From an uncultured Flavobacteriales bacterium (GTDB taxonomy: Bacteria; Bacteroidota; Bacteroidia; Flavobacteriales_G; Salibacteraceae), in contig CAJVZZ010000026.1 of assembly GCA_913020435.1 (NCBI GenBank), positions 1 to 37,939 of the forward strand: a DNA stretch of 37,939 bases, in the 5' to 3' direction. Shown here one piece after another: positions 20,007 to 37,810 of this stretch; position 1 is the first letter of the stretch, and every line of letters begins with the position of its first letter. Below the pieces are notes generated by a model that worked only from the letters and a program-made list of their open reading frames with translations, had not been told where the DNA came from and made no database searches. Both the position numbers and the translations under genes were made by a program.

Positions 20007-20606
20007 ATGAGGAATAACGGAAAGATTATAGGTGCAGGTTTATTGACTGCGATTTCAGCTTCTTTGTGCTGCATTACTCCTATTCTAGCATTATTAGCTG
20101 GGACAAGCGGAATGGCTTCAACTTTCTCGTGGATTGAGCCGTTTCGACCCTATTTAATAGGATTGACAATTTTGGTTCTTAGCTTTGCTTGGTATCAAAT
20201 TCTGCAACCCAAGAAGGATATGAACTGCGATTGCGATGCAGATGAACAAACAAATTTGCTTCAATCAAAATCCTTCTTAGGAGTCGTTACAGTGTTTGCT
20301 TTGGTTATGCTTGTTTTTCCTTATTTTTCTAGTATTTTTTATCTATCTAATGTTGAGCATATTACTACCGTTGAACAATCGAAGATTGAAAAAATTGAGA
20401 TTAATATTAGCGGAATGACCTGCAATAGTTGTGAAGAACATATAGACCATGAAGTAGGTAAAATCGACGGAATCCTTAATTCACAAGCGTCTTATGAAAA
20501 AGGAAATGCAGTTGTTGAATTTGATAAAACTAAAACGAACTGGGCCGAAATTCAAACTGCAATTAACTCTACCGGCTATGAAGTCGTTAATAAATTAGAC
20601 AACTAA
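20007..20606 (+). CDS. MerT-MerP fusion: mercuric-type inner-membrane transporter with HMA domain
   Basis: The 199-residue protein joins a MerT-like membrane part to a MerP-like domain. The first membrane helix carries the Cys pair of MerT (SASLCCITP, Cys21-Cys22). Helix two is near 46-64, the loop MNCDCDAD holds Cys74 and Cys76, and helix three is near 90-112. The C-terminal 75 residues are a heavy-metal-associated domain with GMTCNSCEEH (Cys139, Cys142) and the strand/helix order of HMA domains. In known systems MerT and MerP take up Hg(II) for reduction by MerA, but no merA is nearby, so export or buffering of another soft metal is possible. It is overlapped by the GDCCVxC gene. Confidence 0.88.
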   Translation: MRNNGKIIGAGLLTAISASLCCITPILALLAGTSGMASTFSWIEPFRPYLIGLTILVLSFAWYQILQPKKDMNCDCDADEQTNLLQSKSFLGVVTVFALVMLVFPYFSSIFYLSNVEHITTVEQSKIEKIEINISGMTCNSCEEHIDHEVGKIDGILNSQASYEKGNAVVEFDKTKTNWAEIQTAINSTGYEVVNKLDN

Positions 20607-32134: not shown

Positions 32135-33451
32135 TTATTTAATGTATTTGATGTAATTGTTAACTTTAATATCTGATGCCTTTAAATCGTGCAATAGATT
32201 ATATAAGCCGAAGAAGGTTCTATTGATATAAATAAAATGCTTTGACCCTCTGTTTCCATTCATTTTGCGAAATTCCGTGCTTTTTGAGAAGCGTTCGCCC
32301 AATTCCAACATTTCTCCAAAGAATTTAGGATCAGCAAAATCAAACGTATCTGCATTAAATGGTCTTGTAAATAAGCTCAATAACTCATGAAACATCTCTA
32401 TAAAAAATTCTAACTCTTGCTTTGAATCCGTCGGTTTTAAGATTTCTAATTCAAACATTTTTTTCTGGAATATTTCAGGATCATTAAAGTTCTCCGCTTT
32501 CGCCATATCGAAGTAAGGCAAATAGAAATCATCTGGAATTACTTTCATACATCCAAAATCCAGAACAATTAACTCTGCTTTGTCATTCACCAAGAAATTT
32601 CCCGGATGCGGATCTGCATGTACCTTCTTCAAAATATGAATTTGATACATAAAAAAGTCCCACATAGTTTGCCCTAGATTGTTTCCAATTACAGGGTCAA
32701 AAGATTTTCCTGTAAATTCAGACAGATGCTCACCTTCCATCCAGTCCATTGAAATGATGCGCTCTGATGATAGTTCTGGATAATATGCAGGAAAACGCAA
32801 GTTCTCCAAATGCTTGCAAGCCTCCGCTATTTCTTGGCTTTGCTTTAACTCTAATTTGTAATTAGTTTCGTCAATCAGCTTATCCTCTACTTCTTTAAAA
32901 TACTGGTCTGAATCCTTACCCTTAATATTGAACATTTGTATAGCAATTGGCTTCACCATAGCCAAATCACTACTGATACTTTCTGCTACTCCAGGATATT
33001 GGATTTTTACAGCCAATTTCTTTCCATTCAATTCAGCTCGATGCACCTGACCAATACTCGCTGCATTTTCAGATGATAAATTGAAACTATCGTACAATTC
33101 GCTTGGAGCTTTCCCAAAATACTTGGTAAACGTTTTTAGCACCAAAGCCGGTGAAAGCGGAGGAACAGAAAATTGAGAAAGACTAAATTTATCGGAGTAT
33201 GCTTTTGGGAGGATATTCTTATCCATGCTCAGCATTTGAGCAACTTTTAAGGCACTTCCTTTCAGTTTCTTTAAACCGTCATATATATCCTCTGCATTGT
33301 TTTCGTCCAGACGAGTTTTTGCCTCTAATTCTGTTTTGGTGATTTTTTCACCGTAGTATTTAAGGTAATTTACACCAACCTTTGCTCCTGTTTTGACGAT
33401 CTTAGTAGCACGTTGGATTTTTGAAATTGGAATATTATCAATTGTTTCCAT
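32135..33451 (-). CDS. ABC1/AarF/UbiB-type atypical kinase
   Basis: The 438-residue protein belongs to the ABC1 (ADCK/UbiB) family of atypical kinases or ATPases linked to ubiquinone or lipid metabolism in other bacteria. Visible motifs: a K-V-A-Q near residue 67-70 in place of the usual KxGQ, the A-rich loop AASIGQVHRAEL, AVKIQYPG with the VAIK lysine, HADPHPGNF (catalytic Asp/Asn loop) and VLDFGCMK (DFG). No C-terminal membrane helices are seen. It is the middle gene of a TetR-ABC1-Lacal_2735 operon; the starts overlap or nearly touch. Confidence 0.9.
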   Translation of the reverse strand: METIDNIPISKIQRATKIVKTGAKVGVNYLKYYGEKITKTELEAKTRLDENNAEDIYDGLKKLKGSALKVAQMLSMDKNILPKAYSDKFSLSQFSVPPLSPALVLKTFTKYFGKAPSELYDSFNLSSENAASIGQVHRAELNGKKLAVKIQYPGVAESISSDLAMVKPIAIQMFNIKGKDSDQYFKEVEDKLIDETNYKLELKQSQEIAEACKHLENLRFPAYYPELSSERIISMDWMEGEHLSEFTGKSFDPVIGNNLGQTMWDFFMYQIHILKKVHADPHPGNFLVNDKAELIVLDFGCMKVIPDDFYLPYFDMAKAENFNDPEIFQKKMFELEILKPTDSKQELEFFIEMFHELLSLFTRPFNADTFDFADPKFFGEMLELGERFSKSTEFRKMNGNRGSKHFIYINRTFFGLYNLLHDLKASDIKVNNYIKYIK

Positions 33452-33454
33452 GAA

Positions 33455-34099
33455 TTACATTGACATTTTTTCTTTGAATAAAAATTTTCCTAGGTCAATT
33501 AATCCTTCAAATGGTTTGCTTGCCACTAGGTCTACTGTTGTATTTATAGACTTTTCGATAAACACGTCTGTTTTCTCAAAACCTGGGGATGTGTCTTCTT
33601 TCCAAAATTTGATTGTAAATAAAAGCTGAGCCCATGCAATTTCTGAAAGACTTTTGGCTTTAATTCTGTTCAAGTTTTCTTGAACGAAATCAACACTATC
33701 GATTTCTAAATCGTCAATAAAGTCTTTAAAATGTTTTCGCAACGGAGCTATCGTTTTCATAGACTCCATTTTCTCTTTGCCTAACTCATGAATAATATAG
33801 CTTCTGTTTCTATTCATTATTTCGAAAAAGGTGAAGTAGAAACTCAACAATTTGTTTTTCGCATCAAATGCTTCGTAATCTTTGTTCTTGTGCAGAAGCT
33901 CGAGTGTATTCGTAAAAAAAGTAGTGAATACTTCCTGCTCTAAAATTTCGAAATTCGCATAATACTGATAAAATTCTTGTTCTGAAATTTTAAGTTCTTT
34001 TGCGAATAGAAATACATTCTTAGGGCGTTTCCCATGTTCAAGTATATGCTGCATATACGCAGTTAGAATACTGTCTGCTGTTACCTGTTTCTTTGCCAT
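33455..34099 (-). CDS. TetR-family transcription regulator
   Basis: The 214-residue protein has an N-terminal helix-turn-helix region (ADSILTAYMQHILEHGKRPK, then FLFAKELKISEQEFYQYYANF) typical of TetR and a helical C-terminal ligand domain. It heads the ABC1-kinase operon, with the ABC1 start 4 bases downstream. A dyad ATAAAGTTTAT at 34123-34133, upstream of its start, could be its operator, but this is a guess. Confidence 0.88.
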   Translation of the reverse strand: MAKKQVTADSILTAYMQHILEHGKRPKNVFLFAKELKISEQEFYQYYANFEILEQEVFTTFFTNTLELLHKNKDYEAFDAKNKLLSFYFTFFEIMNRNRSYIIHELGKEKMESMKTIAPLRKHFKDFIDDLEIDSVDFVQENLNRIKAKSLSEIAWAQLLFTIKFWKEDTSPGFEKTDVFIEKSINTTVDLVASKPFEGLIDLGKFLFKEKMSM

Positions 34100-34122
34100 G
34101 CTATAAAGACGAATTATTTAGG

Positions 34123-34133
34123 ATAAAGTTTAT
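34123..34133. promoter_or_regulatory. Possible TetR operator dyad
   Basis: ATAAAGTTTAT (dyad ATAAA-G-TTTAT) lies in the divergent region between the TetR gene and the alpha/beta hydrolase gene. TetR proteins usually bind such short dyads upstream of their own gene. No -7 box was recognised on either side. Confidence 0.3.
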
Positions 34134-34173
34134 GTTTAAGAACTATTTAACACACACATTGTTGTCCTCATAA

Positions 34174-34953
34174 ATGAAACTATTAAATCACGACATTTAC
34201 AAACATCCTACTTCGACTCATTGGGTGGTGTTTTTGCATGGTGCAGGAGGAAGCAGCAAAACTTGGGACCGCCAATTAACGGATTTTAAAGCGCAGTTCA
34301 ATGTGCTAAATATGGACTTAAGAGATCATGGAAATTCAAAAAATATTATCCCCGAATATCCAAAATACAACTTAACGATTGTAACCCAAGATATTCTGAA
34401 TCTTCTGGATCATTTAGGCATTGACAAAGCATCCTTTATTTCATTATCTATGGGTTCATTTCTAATGCAAAGTTTAGCATTACAACGACCACAACTCATC
34501 GAAAAATGCATACTTGCTGGAGCTGTATTTGCCGGCACTTGGCAATTGCGTTGGTTTACTAGAATAGCACTGATATTCAATCAATTATTCACCTATCAGC
34601 AGATGTATACCATCTTCTCTTGGATTCTAATGCCTAGAAAAAACCACCAATTAGCAAGAAGGTTGTATAAAATTCAGGCACACAAACTAAGTCCAGAAGA
34701 ATACTTGAAATGGGTGGCACTATACGATGACTTTTTTAGTACGCTGGACCAGTTTAGAAACTGGAAAGTTTCTTTTCGAACCTTGGTAATTATGGGTGAT
34801 CAGGATTATGTCTTTGCAACGGGTGCCAAACGATTTGAGAAAATTCAACCAAAAGTCACACTTAAAATAATTCCAAACGCAGGACATATTTGCAATATTG
34901 ATCAGCCTGAAATTTTTAATACAACTGCTATTGAGTTTTTTAAGGAGCACTAG
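34174..34953 (+). CDS. Alpha/beta hydrolase
   Basis: A 259-residue single-domain serine hydrolase. The oxyanion loop is FLHGAGGSSKTW (20-31), the nucleophile Ser92 sits in SLSMGS, the acid is likely the Asp in MGDQDYVFA near 207-213 and the base the His in NAGHICNIDQP near 240. The normal elbow G-x-S-x-G is changed to S-x-S-M-G, so the first Gly is a Ser. Substrate unknown. The end overlaps the convergent peptidase remnant by 14 bases. Confidence 0.9.
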   Translation: MKLLNHDIYKHPTSTHWVVFLHGAGGSSKTWDRQLTDFKAQFNVLNMDLRDHGNSKNIIPEYPKYNLTIVTQDILNLLDHLGIDKASFISLSMGSFLMQSLALQRPQLIEKCILAGAVFAGTWQLRWFTRIALIFNQLFTYQQMYTIFSWILMPRKNHQLARRLYKIQAHKLSPEEYLKWVALYDDFFSTLDQFRNWKVSFRTLVIMGDQDYVFATGAKRFEKIQPKVTLKIIPNAGHICNIDQPEIFNTTAIEFFKEH

Positions 34954-35740
34954 GGAGCAGGAACGTTGATTTACTGCGCCCTGCTCTAAATTGTTGCAAT
35001 AAATCTAATCCTATGATGCTTCCCAGAACTTTATCTAAAGCATTTGTAACGCCATCCACTCCCCTAGTTTTTTTTCGGCAACACTCTAAATATGATGGAA
35101 ACAAAGAACAAAAGTCTTGATGTTGGTTTTCTTTCAACTGTTCGTTCCATTGAAAAAACAAATTAGCACCGCCCCAATACATTGCTTTGTAATTATGCTC
35201 TTCCCGTTTCTCGACTGCAATAGGTTCAATCGAGTTTTTATTCTGAAAATATTCTGCTACACCCGAAAACTTTGAATGATAAGCTCTATCAGCCACGACT
35301 TTAGTCATAACATCCATTTCCATAATAACTTGATATTGCATAAACGACGCAAATCCTTCAGCAAACCACACTTCTTTTTCTCCGACATAAGGAATTGCCA
35401 AATGACTCATTTCGTGTGGTGCTGTCCAATCGTTCAAAAAGTCTTCTAGTGCATGAGAAGGATCAATATGAAAGAAGATCTGCTGTTTTGGACACCGCCA
35501 AGTATTAGCCCAAGGACAGGGTTCACCTTTACCTTCTTTAAGTAGAATATGTAATTACACATCGAATGGGTACGCTCCTATCTTTGCTTGAACCGCCTTA
35601 TAAGTTATCCCTAGCCAGATTTGAACCTTTTCTTTTTCTTCTTCGGTAAACTCAGCCTCCCAAGTATAGATGAGCTTGGACTGAGCTACTAAATTGAACG
35701 CGAAGTTTAACAGGAATAATATGATGAAGAGTAATCGCAT
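34940..35740 (-). pseudogene. Gluzincin metallopeptidase gene with one in-frame stop
   Basis: The frame starts with a signal peptide (MRLLFIILFLLNFAFN...AQ) and ends at a TAA at 35555-35557 after GAYPFDV. The same frame goes on without another stop for 204 codons: LHILLKEGKGEPCPWANTWR, then APHEMSH, the zinc motif HExxH, and WFAEGFAS, where Glu is the third ligand about 14 residues later. Only one codon, GTG TAA TTA, is broken; CAA to TAA would explain it. No start codon lies between the stop and HEMSH other than a TTG at 35437. The product of the intact gene would be about 266 residues, an exported M1/M-type peptidase fragment. Confidence 0.75.
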
Positions 35741-35953
35741 TTTGATTGGTTAAATTTAAGATGTTGCTAAGTCAGTTATTGTTAAACTATTCCAAGAATC
35801 TTTAATCCTTTAAGTTGAGTCTTTCATTAGAGGATCTAATCCTAGATTTAAACGTTTAATTTAACTGTTAATCACAAAGCAACAAAACGCTCCACAACAC
35901 TTACAAAAAAACGAATTAATGTATTATTGCCCGTCTATCTAAAGTTCGAAATT

Positions 35954-37810
35954 ATGGAAGCAAGTACTGTACAAGATTTTATTAACGATGTATTAAAGAA
36001 TATGCCATCTGGCTGGTTAAATCTAACCACGCATAGACTAGATGTTTACGATGAAAAATTGGCTAAAACTCAATTTTTAGAACAGTTTGGAACCTTGTTC
36101 AAAAGCAATAATTCTGACGCATCAGCACTCTATGAATTGCCTACTTCTTACGACTACATCAGATTAGGTCACCCACTTTCTTGTATACTAGAGTGGGCAA
36201 TTGCCAATATGAATGAGTTAAAACCAGAAAATGCAATCAGTTTTTCATCAAAGACGACTCCGATTTTAGCTGTTCTTAGAAAGAATTTACTGGATAATAA
36301 AAACACACAAATCATTTATACAGGTGCGGCTCCTTCCTTTTTTGATGCTGAATTAGTAAAACGGGTCTATGGGTATAGATTTGAACTAAAACATATTGAA
36401 AGCATAGAGGATCTCTCTCCTTACGAAGGAAGTACCGTCTTCATTTCAGAACTGGATGAATTTTCATATACTGGACTCTCTTTACCAATAATATCCGAAA
36501 TTGACTTTTTCATCCATACAGATGCTCACTTGGGAAGTATTTTATTAGTGAATGGCACAAAAAACGAAAGTTATATCTCTGAAATTCAACATGTACGAAG
36601 ACGAGAGACTATTGCTATGACGCCAGGCAACTCTCTTGATGCCTTACAATCCCTAATCGGACAATCTTCTCCAGAACAAAAGAACAGCGCTATCGAGACA
36701 AACAAAGCACTTGTTTTGGATTCAATTAAAACCGTTACCGGTTCTAATACTAAGGCTGCTGTTGGTTCTAGCGGATTATCAATTCAATATGCGATAATGA
36801 TGGGTTTAGTGCACGATGCACTGGAAAATCATGAAGGAAAAGCCATCAAGTTTATTGTTCCTACAAATTGTTATGGAGGAACCAATGACCAAGCAAGACG
36901 CGTTGCTGCTTGCATTGACAATGTTGAAGTTGTCGATTTAGCAGTTGATGGTGATAATGATATGGTTCAAAGTATCGATACCGTTTTAGCTAAAATTGCA
37001 AACGAAGATGCCGTTCCTTACATCATCGCAGAAATTCCTACAAATCCTAGGGTTGAAGTTCCGGATTTGATTCAATTAAAAGCCGTTTTAAGTCAAGAAC
37101 GTAAAACTGCTAATGGAACAACTGCTGTCGATCCAGTCTTTATTTTAGACCAAACTTTTTGTCCTAACGTACATTTTTTAGGTGAAGGTGAAATACTCTC
37201 AACCGTTCGAACTATTTCCTATGTTAGTGGGTCAAAATTTCCGAGTGGCGGGCGATGCACTGCCGGTTATTGTGTCGGAAATAAGAAAACGATAGCATTA
37301 ATGGACAAGATAGAATTGCATCTCCTGCTTTGCGATAATGAGGCTACTGAACTTCAGTATGAACTTTTGGCAAAACAATTACCATCTATGAATCAACGGA
37401 TTCAAGATGCATATGTCAATACCCGTGAATTTGTAAATTTCATCAACGCTACTTTACCATCTGCAAAAATCAATTTTGTTTCAGAAGAATTGGCGGAACA
37501 AGGATTTACTCCTTCTGTGTTTTCACTAGACCTGCCTACTAAAGGGAATACTGATGAAGAAAGAGAAGCATACAAAAGAGATTTGAATCTTAAATTAATT
37601 GATTTAATGATTACCGAAATCCCTAATGAAAGTAAATACTGTGTAAGTTACGGACAGCTAAAAGGCTGTTATTGGACTATCCCCGCAACATCTACTCAAG
37701 GAACAACTAAAGAAGGCGATAAAGATTACATTGCTCGCGTAGCGCTTTCTCCAACTATGGATTTAGAACTGCATAAAAAAGTCTTTTCAGATTTTGTTGA
37801 TAGTATTTGA
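35954..37810 (+). CDS. Large PLP-dependent transferase of the Cys/Met-metabolism type
   Basis: The 618-residue protein (ATG at 35954; an upstream TTG adds 9 residues) carries a PLP fold in its C-terminal half: GSSGLSIQYAIM, NCYGGTNDQARR, AEIPTNPRVEVPDL, FILDQTF with the PLP Asp, and YVSGSKFPSGG with the Schiff-base Lys. This matches cystathionine gamma-synthase-like enzymes. The N-terminal ~260 residues show a second, weaker version of the same start, YIRLGHPLSCILEWA, ISFSSKTTPILAVL, YTGAAPSFFDAE and EDLSPYEGSTVFISE, but with no Lys motif. So the protein may be a tandem copy with one dead half. Substrate is unknown; thiol or sulphur amino-acid chemistry is inferred. Confidence 0.75.
   Translation: MEASTVQDFINDVLKNMPSGWLNLTTHRLDVYDEKLAKTQFLEQFGTLFKSNNSDASALYELPTSYDYIRLGHPLSCILEWAIANMNELKPENAISFSSKTTPILAVLRKNLLDNKNTQIIYTGAAPSFFDAELVKRVYGYRFELKHIESIEDLSPYEGSTVFISELDEFSYTGLSLPIISEIDFFIHTDAHLGSILLVNGTKNESYISEIQHVRRRETIAMTPGNSLDALQSLIGQSSPEQKNSAIETNKALVLDSIKTVTGSNTKAAVGSSGLSIQYAIMMGLVHDALENHEGKAIKFIVPTNCYGGTNDQARRVAACIDNVEVVDLAVDGDNDMVQSIDTVLAKIANEDAVPYIIAEIPTNPRVEVPDLIQLKAVLSQERKTANGTTAVDPVFILDQTFCPNVHFLGEGEILSTVRTISYVSGSKFPSGGRCTAGYCVGNKKTIALMDKIELHLLLCDNEATELQYELLAKQLPSMNQRIQDAYVNTREFVNFINATLPSAKINFVSEELAEQGFTPSVFSLDLPTKGNTDEEREAYKRDLNLKLIDLMITEIPNESKYCVSYGQLKGCYWTIPATSTQGTTKEGDKDYIARVALSPTMDLELHKKVFSDFVDSI

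Follow-up and report, generated by a model that had tools for sequence, protein, structure and literature searches.

Active and inactive fold type I PLP subunits form pairs in the glycine decarboxylase P-protein and in serine palmitoyltransferase LCB1/LCB2, which belong to other PLP families, and many P-proteins carry the active and the inactive partner fused in one chain. The ordinary enzymes of Cys/Met metabolism, such as MetB, cystathionine gamma-lyase and methionine gamma-lyase, are about 380-430 residues long, and have one PLP domain per chain; the chains pair, and through an N-terminal loop each one provides a YxR motif to the PLP phosphate bound in the other's site. In Citrobacter methionine gamma-lyase, the PLP phosphate is held by hydrogen bonds from Tyr58 and Arg60, and Tyr58 is marked as a residue of the neighbouring subunit in the available part of the report (PMC9307983). 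The complementary subunit of Pseudomonas cystathionine gamma-lyase supplies R58 and the loop 23-60, according to the available part of its report (PMC11039470).

The closest described systems are longer. Yeast Yll058w has an extra region of about 180 aa that is predicted to fold back and to supply missing active-site residues, and the enzyme is predicted to be monomeric; according to the available part of the report, the extra region shows no homology to MetY or Met15 (PMC9763685). BesB, a terminal-alkyne-forming PLP enzyme (9aua), is also a long Cys/Met enzyme, as is the 618-aa protein described here. The architecture idea is already in print for yeast; what is added here is a bacterial extra region in which a decayed copy of the enzyme can be recognised. 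A literature search, which covered mostly papers outside subscription, found none that deals with a dead PLP half in this Bacteroidota family, and the available parts of PMC4523565, PMC12239629, PMC10367076 and PMC9757880 contain nothing on the architecture.

Results

The window, the whole stretch of 37,939 nucleotides that was analysed, is positions 1-37939 of a contig from a 2.95 Mb genome that is 98.4% complete. An open reading frame at 35954-37810 on the forward strand encodes 618 aa from an ATG at 35954. An alternative in-frame TTG lies upstream at 35927; the similar lengths of related proteins, whose starts were assigned by script, agree with the ATG. A protein search of the same 98.4% complete genome found no second copy. 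Relatives were gathered from 113 loci, 105 of which encode full-length proteins of 609-628 aa, the window's own included and with the same species possibly counted twice; these 105 proteins are the rows in which conservation is counted below. The features of the gene are as follows.

35954..37810, forward strand: whole gene, stop codon included, for a 618-aa PLP enzyme with a very probably dead N-terminal PLP domain (frame, translation, lengths of relatives)
35954..36661, forward strand: N-half, residues 1-236, N-terminal arm and probable decayed PLP-binding domain (AF2 of the half alone, VIA-align, profile alignment)
36149..36175, forward strand: YDYIRLGHP, residues 66-74, putative partner-type phosphate-binding motif (Y68 and R70 in 105/105 rows, aligned with MetB Y46 and R48)
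36503..36538, forward strand: would-be Lys loop, residues 184-195, with a gap over MetB K198 (columns 188-192 vary freely; K at 192 in 4/105 rows)
36587..36625, forward strand: QHVRRRETIAMTP, residues 212-224, second highly conserved patch, aligned with the segment past the Lys loop (H213, R215-R217 and P224 in 105/105 rows)
36632..36709, forward strand: variable stretch opening the C-half, residues 227-252, without a YxR motif (mean conservation 0.51, 0/26 invariant)
36668..37807, forward strand: C-half, residues 239-618, predicted complete active-type Cys/Met PLP fold (7swh_A Z 30.7; hhalign E 2.3e-9)
37139..37159, forward strand: FILDQTF, residues 396-402, Asp399 aligned with MetB Asp173 (D399 in 105/105 rows)
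37226..37252, forward strand: SGSKFPSGG, residues 425-433, Lys428 the Schiff-base lysine by alignment with MetB K198 (K428 in 105/105 rows)
37736..37738, forward strand: Arg595, aligned with MetB R361 (R595 in 105/105 rows)

The C-half resembles an active enzyme of the group. The model of residues 239-618 comprises a PLP domain and a C-terminal domain, with 7swh_A as its best match (Z 30.7, rmsd 3.1, 331 aligned). An hhalign comparison of the C-half profile with a profile of ordinary Cys/Met enzymes (34 sequences, E. coli MetB and 33 others) gave a one-to-one E of 2.3e-9 and a probability of 96%, in an alignment that begins at MetB residue 70. Lys428, Asp399, Tyr307 and Arg595 all align with MetB, and each is present in 105/105 rows. 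Asp399, like MetB Asp173, presumably contacts the PLP pyridine nitrogen; Tyr307 is taken to be the stacking Tyr, and Arg595, like MetB R361, to bind the substrate carboxylate. The C-half thus shares both its predicted fold and its catalytic residues with MetB, cystathionine gamma-lyase and methionine gamma-lyase. The original prediction placed FILDQTF and SGSKFPSGG in this half, as is the case, within what it called a full motif set; the Lys and Asp motifs are there, and YxRxGNP is absent, so that the set is not full.

The model libraries recognise the family unevenly. Pfam PF01053 gave no match to the 618-aa protein at E 1, which counts against the interpretation favoured below; it matches 23/31 family members at E 0.1 or better, the best at 1.1e-10, and TIGR01329 matches 31/31 at E 0.01 or better. 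The model of the whole chain has a mean pLDDT of 83.2 and a pTM of 0.88, with residues 27-32, 561-570 and 578-589 under 50. The last two stretches lie inside the highly conserved segment 561-600, and their low pLDDT is also to be counted against that interpretation. Residues 561-600 have the top conservation among the measured stretches (mean 0.95, 29/40 invariant), yet the lowest model certainty; it is possible that they form a mobile substrate lid.

The N-half has the predicted fold of the same enzymes. Residues 1-262 were predicted alone by AF2 (pLDDT 82.6, pTM 0.81), and the 50/50 Foldseek matches listed for this model are Cys/Met enzymes (best E 4.1e-6), as are the 50/50 entries listed by VIA-align (best 1ibj_A, Z 12.9, rmsd 4.8, 201 aligned). 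Many of the VIA-align rows listed span from near the chain start to about residue 245-260, and others reach further. In the profile alignment, residues 60-234 pair with MetB 38-245 at a score of 29.9 (E 0.003 one-to-one, hhalign probability only 10%), a score that beats 200/200 column shuffles (maximum 25.7) and 55/55 reversed rotations (maximum 17.9). This alignment pairs YDYIRLGHP with HDYSRRGNP and opens two gaps, one over MetB K198 and one over the Asp173 region. The predicted fold, the weak profile alignment and the gaps over Lys and Asp make it very probable that the N-half is a dead PLP domain, as originally proposed. Its weak alignment counts against the interpretation favoured below, as do profile searches of the PDB, which reached only E 0.41-1.1; the 618-aa protein alone gave no PDB sequence match at E 1 or better. 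Direct comparison of the N-half and C-half profiles gave no match, which is likewise counted against that interpretation; because of this blank, the case for a common origin of the halves comes from the likeness of each to the ordinary enzymes.

The N-half contains YDYIRLGHP (66-74), SFSS (96-99), IIYTGA and VFISE. Its best-conserved patches are 62-82 (YxR, 0.92), 205-226 (QHVRRR, 0.91) and 18-34 (0.87), compared with 0.62 for 146-182. The original prediction read this half as a repeat of the opening of the fold that lacks the Lys motif. The fold is the same in the predictions of residues 1-262, and the Lys motif is indeed missing, with a profile gap over MetB K198 and a region that varies among the 105 rows. 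The YxR motif, however, occurs in the N-half only and is not repeated, and "opening" is too short a description for a half that spans from the N-terminal arm to a strand and helix past the Lys loop. The YxRxGNP-type motif and the Lys are therefore in separate domains, with the YxR motif confined to the N-half, unlike in ordinary PF01053 enzymes.

Of the long enzymes, BesB could be compared directly. Among the 50 Foldseek matches listed, 9aua is the sole entry whose alignment covers most of the model (635 columns, rmsd 7.5), with a TMq of 0.56 vs 0.42-0.45. In Streptomyces cattleya BesB (L137), about 157 residues precede the Pfam domain, which is matched from profile position 69 onward, and the protein scores 950.8 bits to NF042918, the BesB model (cut-off 800). 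The 618-aa protein had no match to NF042918 at E 10, nor at E 1 in the genome search, and 1/31 family members matched it, at E 0.0012. The BesB C-half is nearer to the ordinary enzymes (E 2.7e-22) than is the C-half here (E 2.3e-9). No sequence link was found between the N-terminal part of L137 and the N-half described here. Nor did the BesB N-terminal part show a sequence link to the ordinary enzymes, as 22/200 shuffles score as high.

The family looks tight and patchy in the searches, which covered Bacteroidota at the whole-genome level (60 near genomes and 395 across the phylum). Matches were found in 19/60 near genomes and 12/395 genomes phylum-wide, the host's own included in both; the match in one near genome (G001) is a C-terminal remnant. 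For more distant members, a 31-row profile recovered the same 12/395 genomes as the single sequence. In a scan of genome contigs, the best 80 of 559 relatives are all Bacteroidota by title, with 73-77% identity. The 618-aa protein had no match in the plasmid and phage collections, nor in PHROGs. The full length is kept across Flavobacteriales, Saprospirales and Cytophagales, and no split gene was seen among relatives. The 8 partial loci are otherwise accounted for: L014, L016, L017, L021 and L022 reach a locus end, L018 and L020 belong to a single place interrupted by a 100-N gap, and what is left in L019 is a remnant. L019 (G001:C6:120552-120749), from the same genus, has only about 67 C-terminal residues left, at about 70% identity, and is apparently a remnant of gene loss. 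A tree of 81 rows, 79 of them labelled by order, has the orders mixed, with 8 label changes vs a least possible 3. This is only suggestive of transfer between orders, although bins and paralogues can also give mixed orders.

No conserved neighbour gene was found among 80 loci, some with short flanks; the largest shared family, which reads by eye as sigma-factor-like, occurs in 7/80. Rfam detected no riboswitch in the window and 10 loci, and only one tRNA. Beside the enzyme, a 165-aa frame with a TTG start (34940-35437, reverse strand) matches the middle of peptidase family M1 weakly, below the cut-off, and is possibly a truncated or mis-started gene. An ABC1 atypical kinase, a TetR-like regulator with TetR_C_23 and an alpha/beta hydrolase adjoin each other at 32135-34953. 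Further away, the product of 20007-20606 (forward strand) resembles, on inspection by eye, a MerT-type transporter with a fused metal-binding GMTCNSC domain.

The host genome encodes two ordinary Cys/Met enzymes besides the 618-aa protein, in frames of 387 and 416 aa. The 387-aa enzyme has its top score to a gamma-lyase model, yet passes the cut-off of NF005871 (cystathionine gamma-synthase); the 416-aa enzyme passes the cut-off of NF005455 (gamma-synthase family). Replacement of the ordinary enzyme by the long one was rejected, as the 11 carriers among 26 genomes each keep 1-5 strong ordinary ones. No match was found in the 98.4% complete host genome for homoserine dehydrogenase, with a model that detects 14/14 controls, or for MetA and MetX, with models that detect 8/14 and 9/14 controls, respectively. 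Homoserine dehydrogenase is present in 16/60 genomes, namely 2/19 with a family match (G006 and G016) and 14/41 without one, as raw counts that ignore kinship. It is absent from 44/60 genomes, including 17/19 of those with a family match, one of these matches being a remnant. The absence of homoserine dehydrogenase from the host and other genomes, and in the host of MetX and MetA matches as well, suggests threonine and methionine auxotrophy.

Discussion

The two halves of the 618-aa protein look complementary. Y68 and R70 of the N-half are invariant (105/105), in contrast to the variable start of the C-half (227-252), where its own motif would sit; conversely, the Lys region is gapped or variable in the N-half and invariant in the C-half. 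This pattern of conservation is as expected if the N-half is kept for what the C-half receives from it. The protein would be a fold type I Cys/Met PLP enzyme in which the N-half is a decayed partner subunit fused ahead of the active subunit. The C-half would retain the cofactor and the chemistry (Lys428, Asp399, Tyr307 and Arg595) without a YxR of its own; the N-half would have lost its own cofactor site and retained YxR and the QHVRRR patch. The chain may form a pseudo-dimer of its own two halves, and the C-half active site would then be completed by Tyr68 and Arg70, perhaps together with the RRR patch. In the N-half profile alignment, R216 falls at MetB N227, which is taken to be a position within the neighbour's substrate site; this is no more than a lead. 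The one-chain model, with a pTM of 0.88, predicts the placement of both halves with confidence and is counted in favour of the fused-partner arrangement, as is the fold-back prediction published for Yll058w (PMC9763685, available part). Taken together, it is probable that the N-half acts as an internal partner subunit that completes the C-half site for a PLP-dependent gamma-elimination or gamma-replacement, likelier on an acquired or salvaged amino acid.

The same anatomy could work between chains, with the N-half of one chain reaching the C-half site of a second in a homodimer and the dead domain serving as an interface. Such an arrangement is compatible with a single-chain prediction, and in ordinary members of the group each site draws on both chains (available parts of PMC9307983 and PMC11039470). 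However, the single-chain model (pTM 0.88) already places both halves, and Yll058w is predicted to be monomeric in the available part of PMC9763685; completion between chains is judged unlikely. The original prediction suggested a regulatory or substrate-channelling role, in which a dead PLP fold would bind a ligand or pass an intermediate to the C-half. The three conserved patches and the invariant Arg-rich segment could bind a ligand, but ordinary enzymes use the equivalent of the top-conserved patch to serve the cofactor of the partner, the half's own site is gapped or variable, and there is no conserved partner gene nearby. No evidence for such a role was found, the pattern of residue conservation and loss points to active-site completion, and a regulatory or channelling domain is quite improbable. 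Slightly less credible still is an N-terminal domain of other origin whose likeness to the group reflects convergence or prediction bias. The sequence support is weak, as this reading would have it; against it, Cys/Met enzymes and no other folds fill 50/50 listed rows in each of two structure comparisons, and the sequence alignment pairs the YxRxG[NH]P motifs and outscores all shuffles.

PLP-dependent gamma-elimination or gamma-replacement is the most likely reaction, with a gamma-substituted amino acid as substrate. Because no homoserine dehydrogenase, MetA or MetX match was found, synthesis in the host from acyl-homoserine of its own making is unlikely; a better guess is that an acquired amino acid undergoes a lyase or replacement reaction. 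One point favours a forward enzyme of the kind seen in yeast Str2 or Yll058w, producing cystathionine or homocysteine from acyl-homoserine: Yll058w, whose described architecture is similar, forms homocysteine out of O-acetylhomoserine and sulfide, and its K376A variant is dead (available part of PMC9763685). The substrate could also be salvaged. Nevertheless, besides the three missing host enzymes, 17/19 genomes with a match also lack homoserine dehydrogenase (G006 and G016 have it), and a forward enzyme is a possible but rather doubtful reading.

A tandem pair of active and inactive halves in one chain, thought unusual in the original prediction, has precedent in the fold-back region predicted for Yll058w (PMC9763685, available part) and in BesB (9aua), which aligns over most of the model. 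Like Yll058w/Hsu1 and its paralogs Str2 and Yml082w, the 618-aa protein is a Cys/Met-type PLP enzyme with an extra region that, from the residue pattern here, would complete the site. It differs in having an extra region that can be recognised as a decayed PLP domain; the likeness is drawn from the description of the fungal proteins rather than from their sequences. It is tentatively suggested that the extra region of the long Cys/Met enzymes, in the Bacteroidota family, yeast Str2/Yll058w and BesB, is a fossil subunit: a homodimer would have been duplicated and fused, and the halves would have lost the parts that they mutually supply, leaving one complete site made of two domains in a single chain. 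As part of this suggestion, and equally tentatively, the Bacteroidota family may keep enough of the dead half to show this origin.

If true, the family would be a clear case of a homodimer that became a single chain through fusion and complementary loss, and would hint at the source of the unexplained extra region in the yeast homocysteine synthase Yll058w. It would also mark a tight, patchy Bacteroidota family of PLP enzymes, whose member in the window is missed by the Pfam model.
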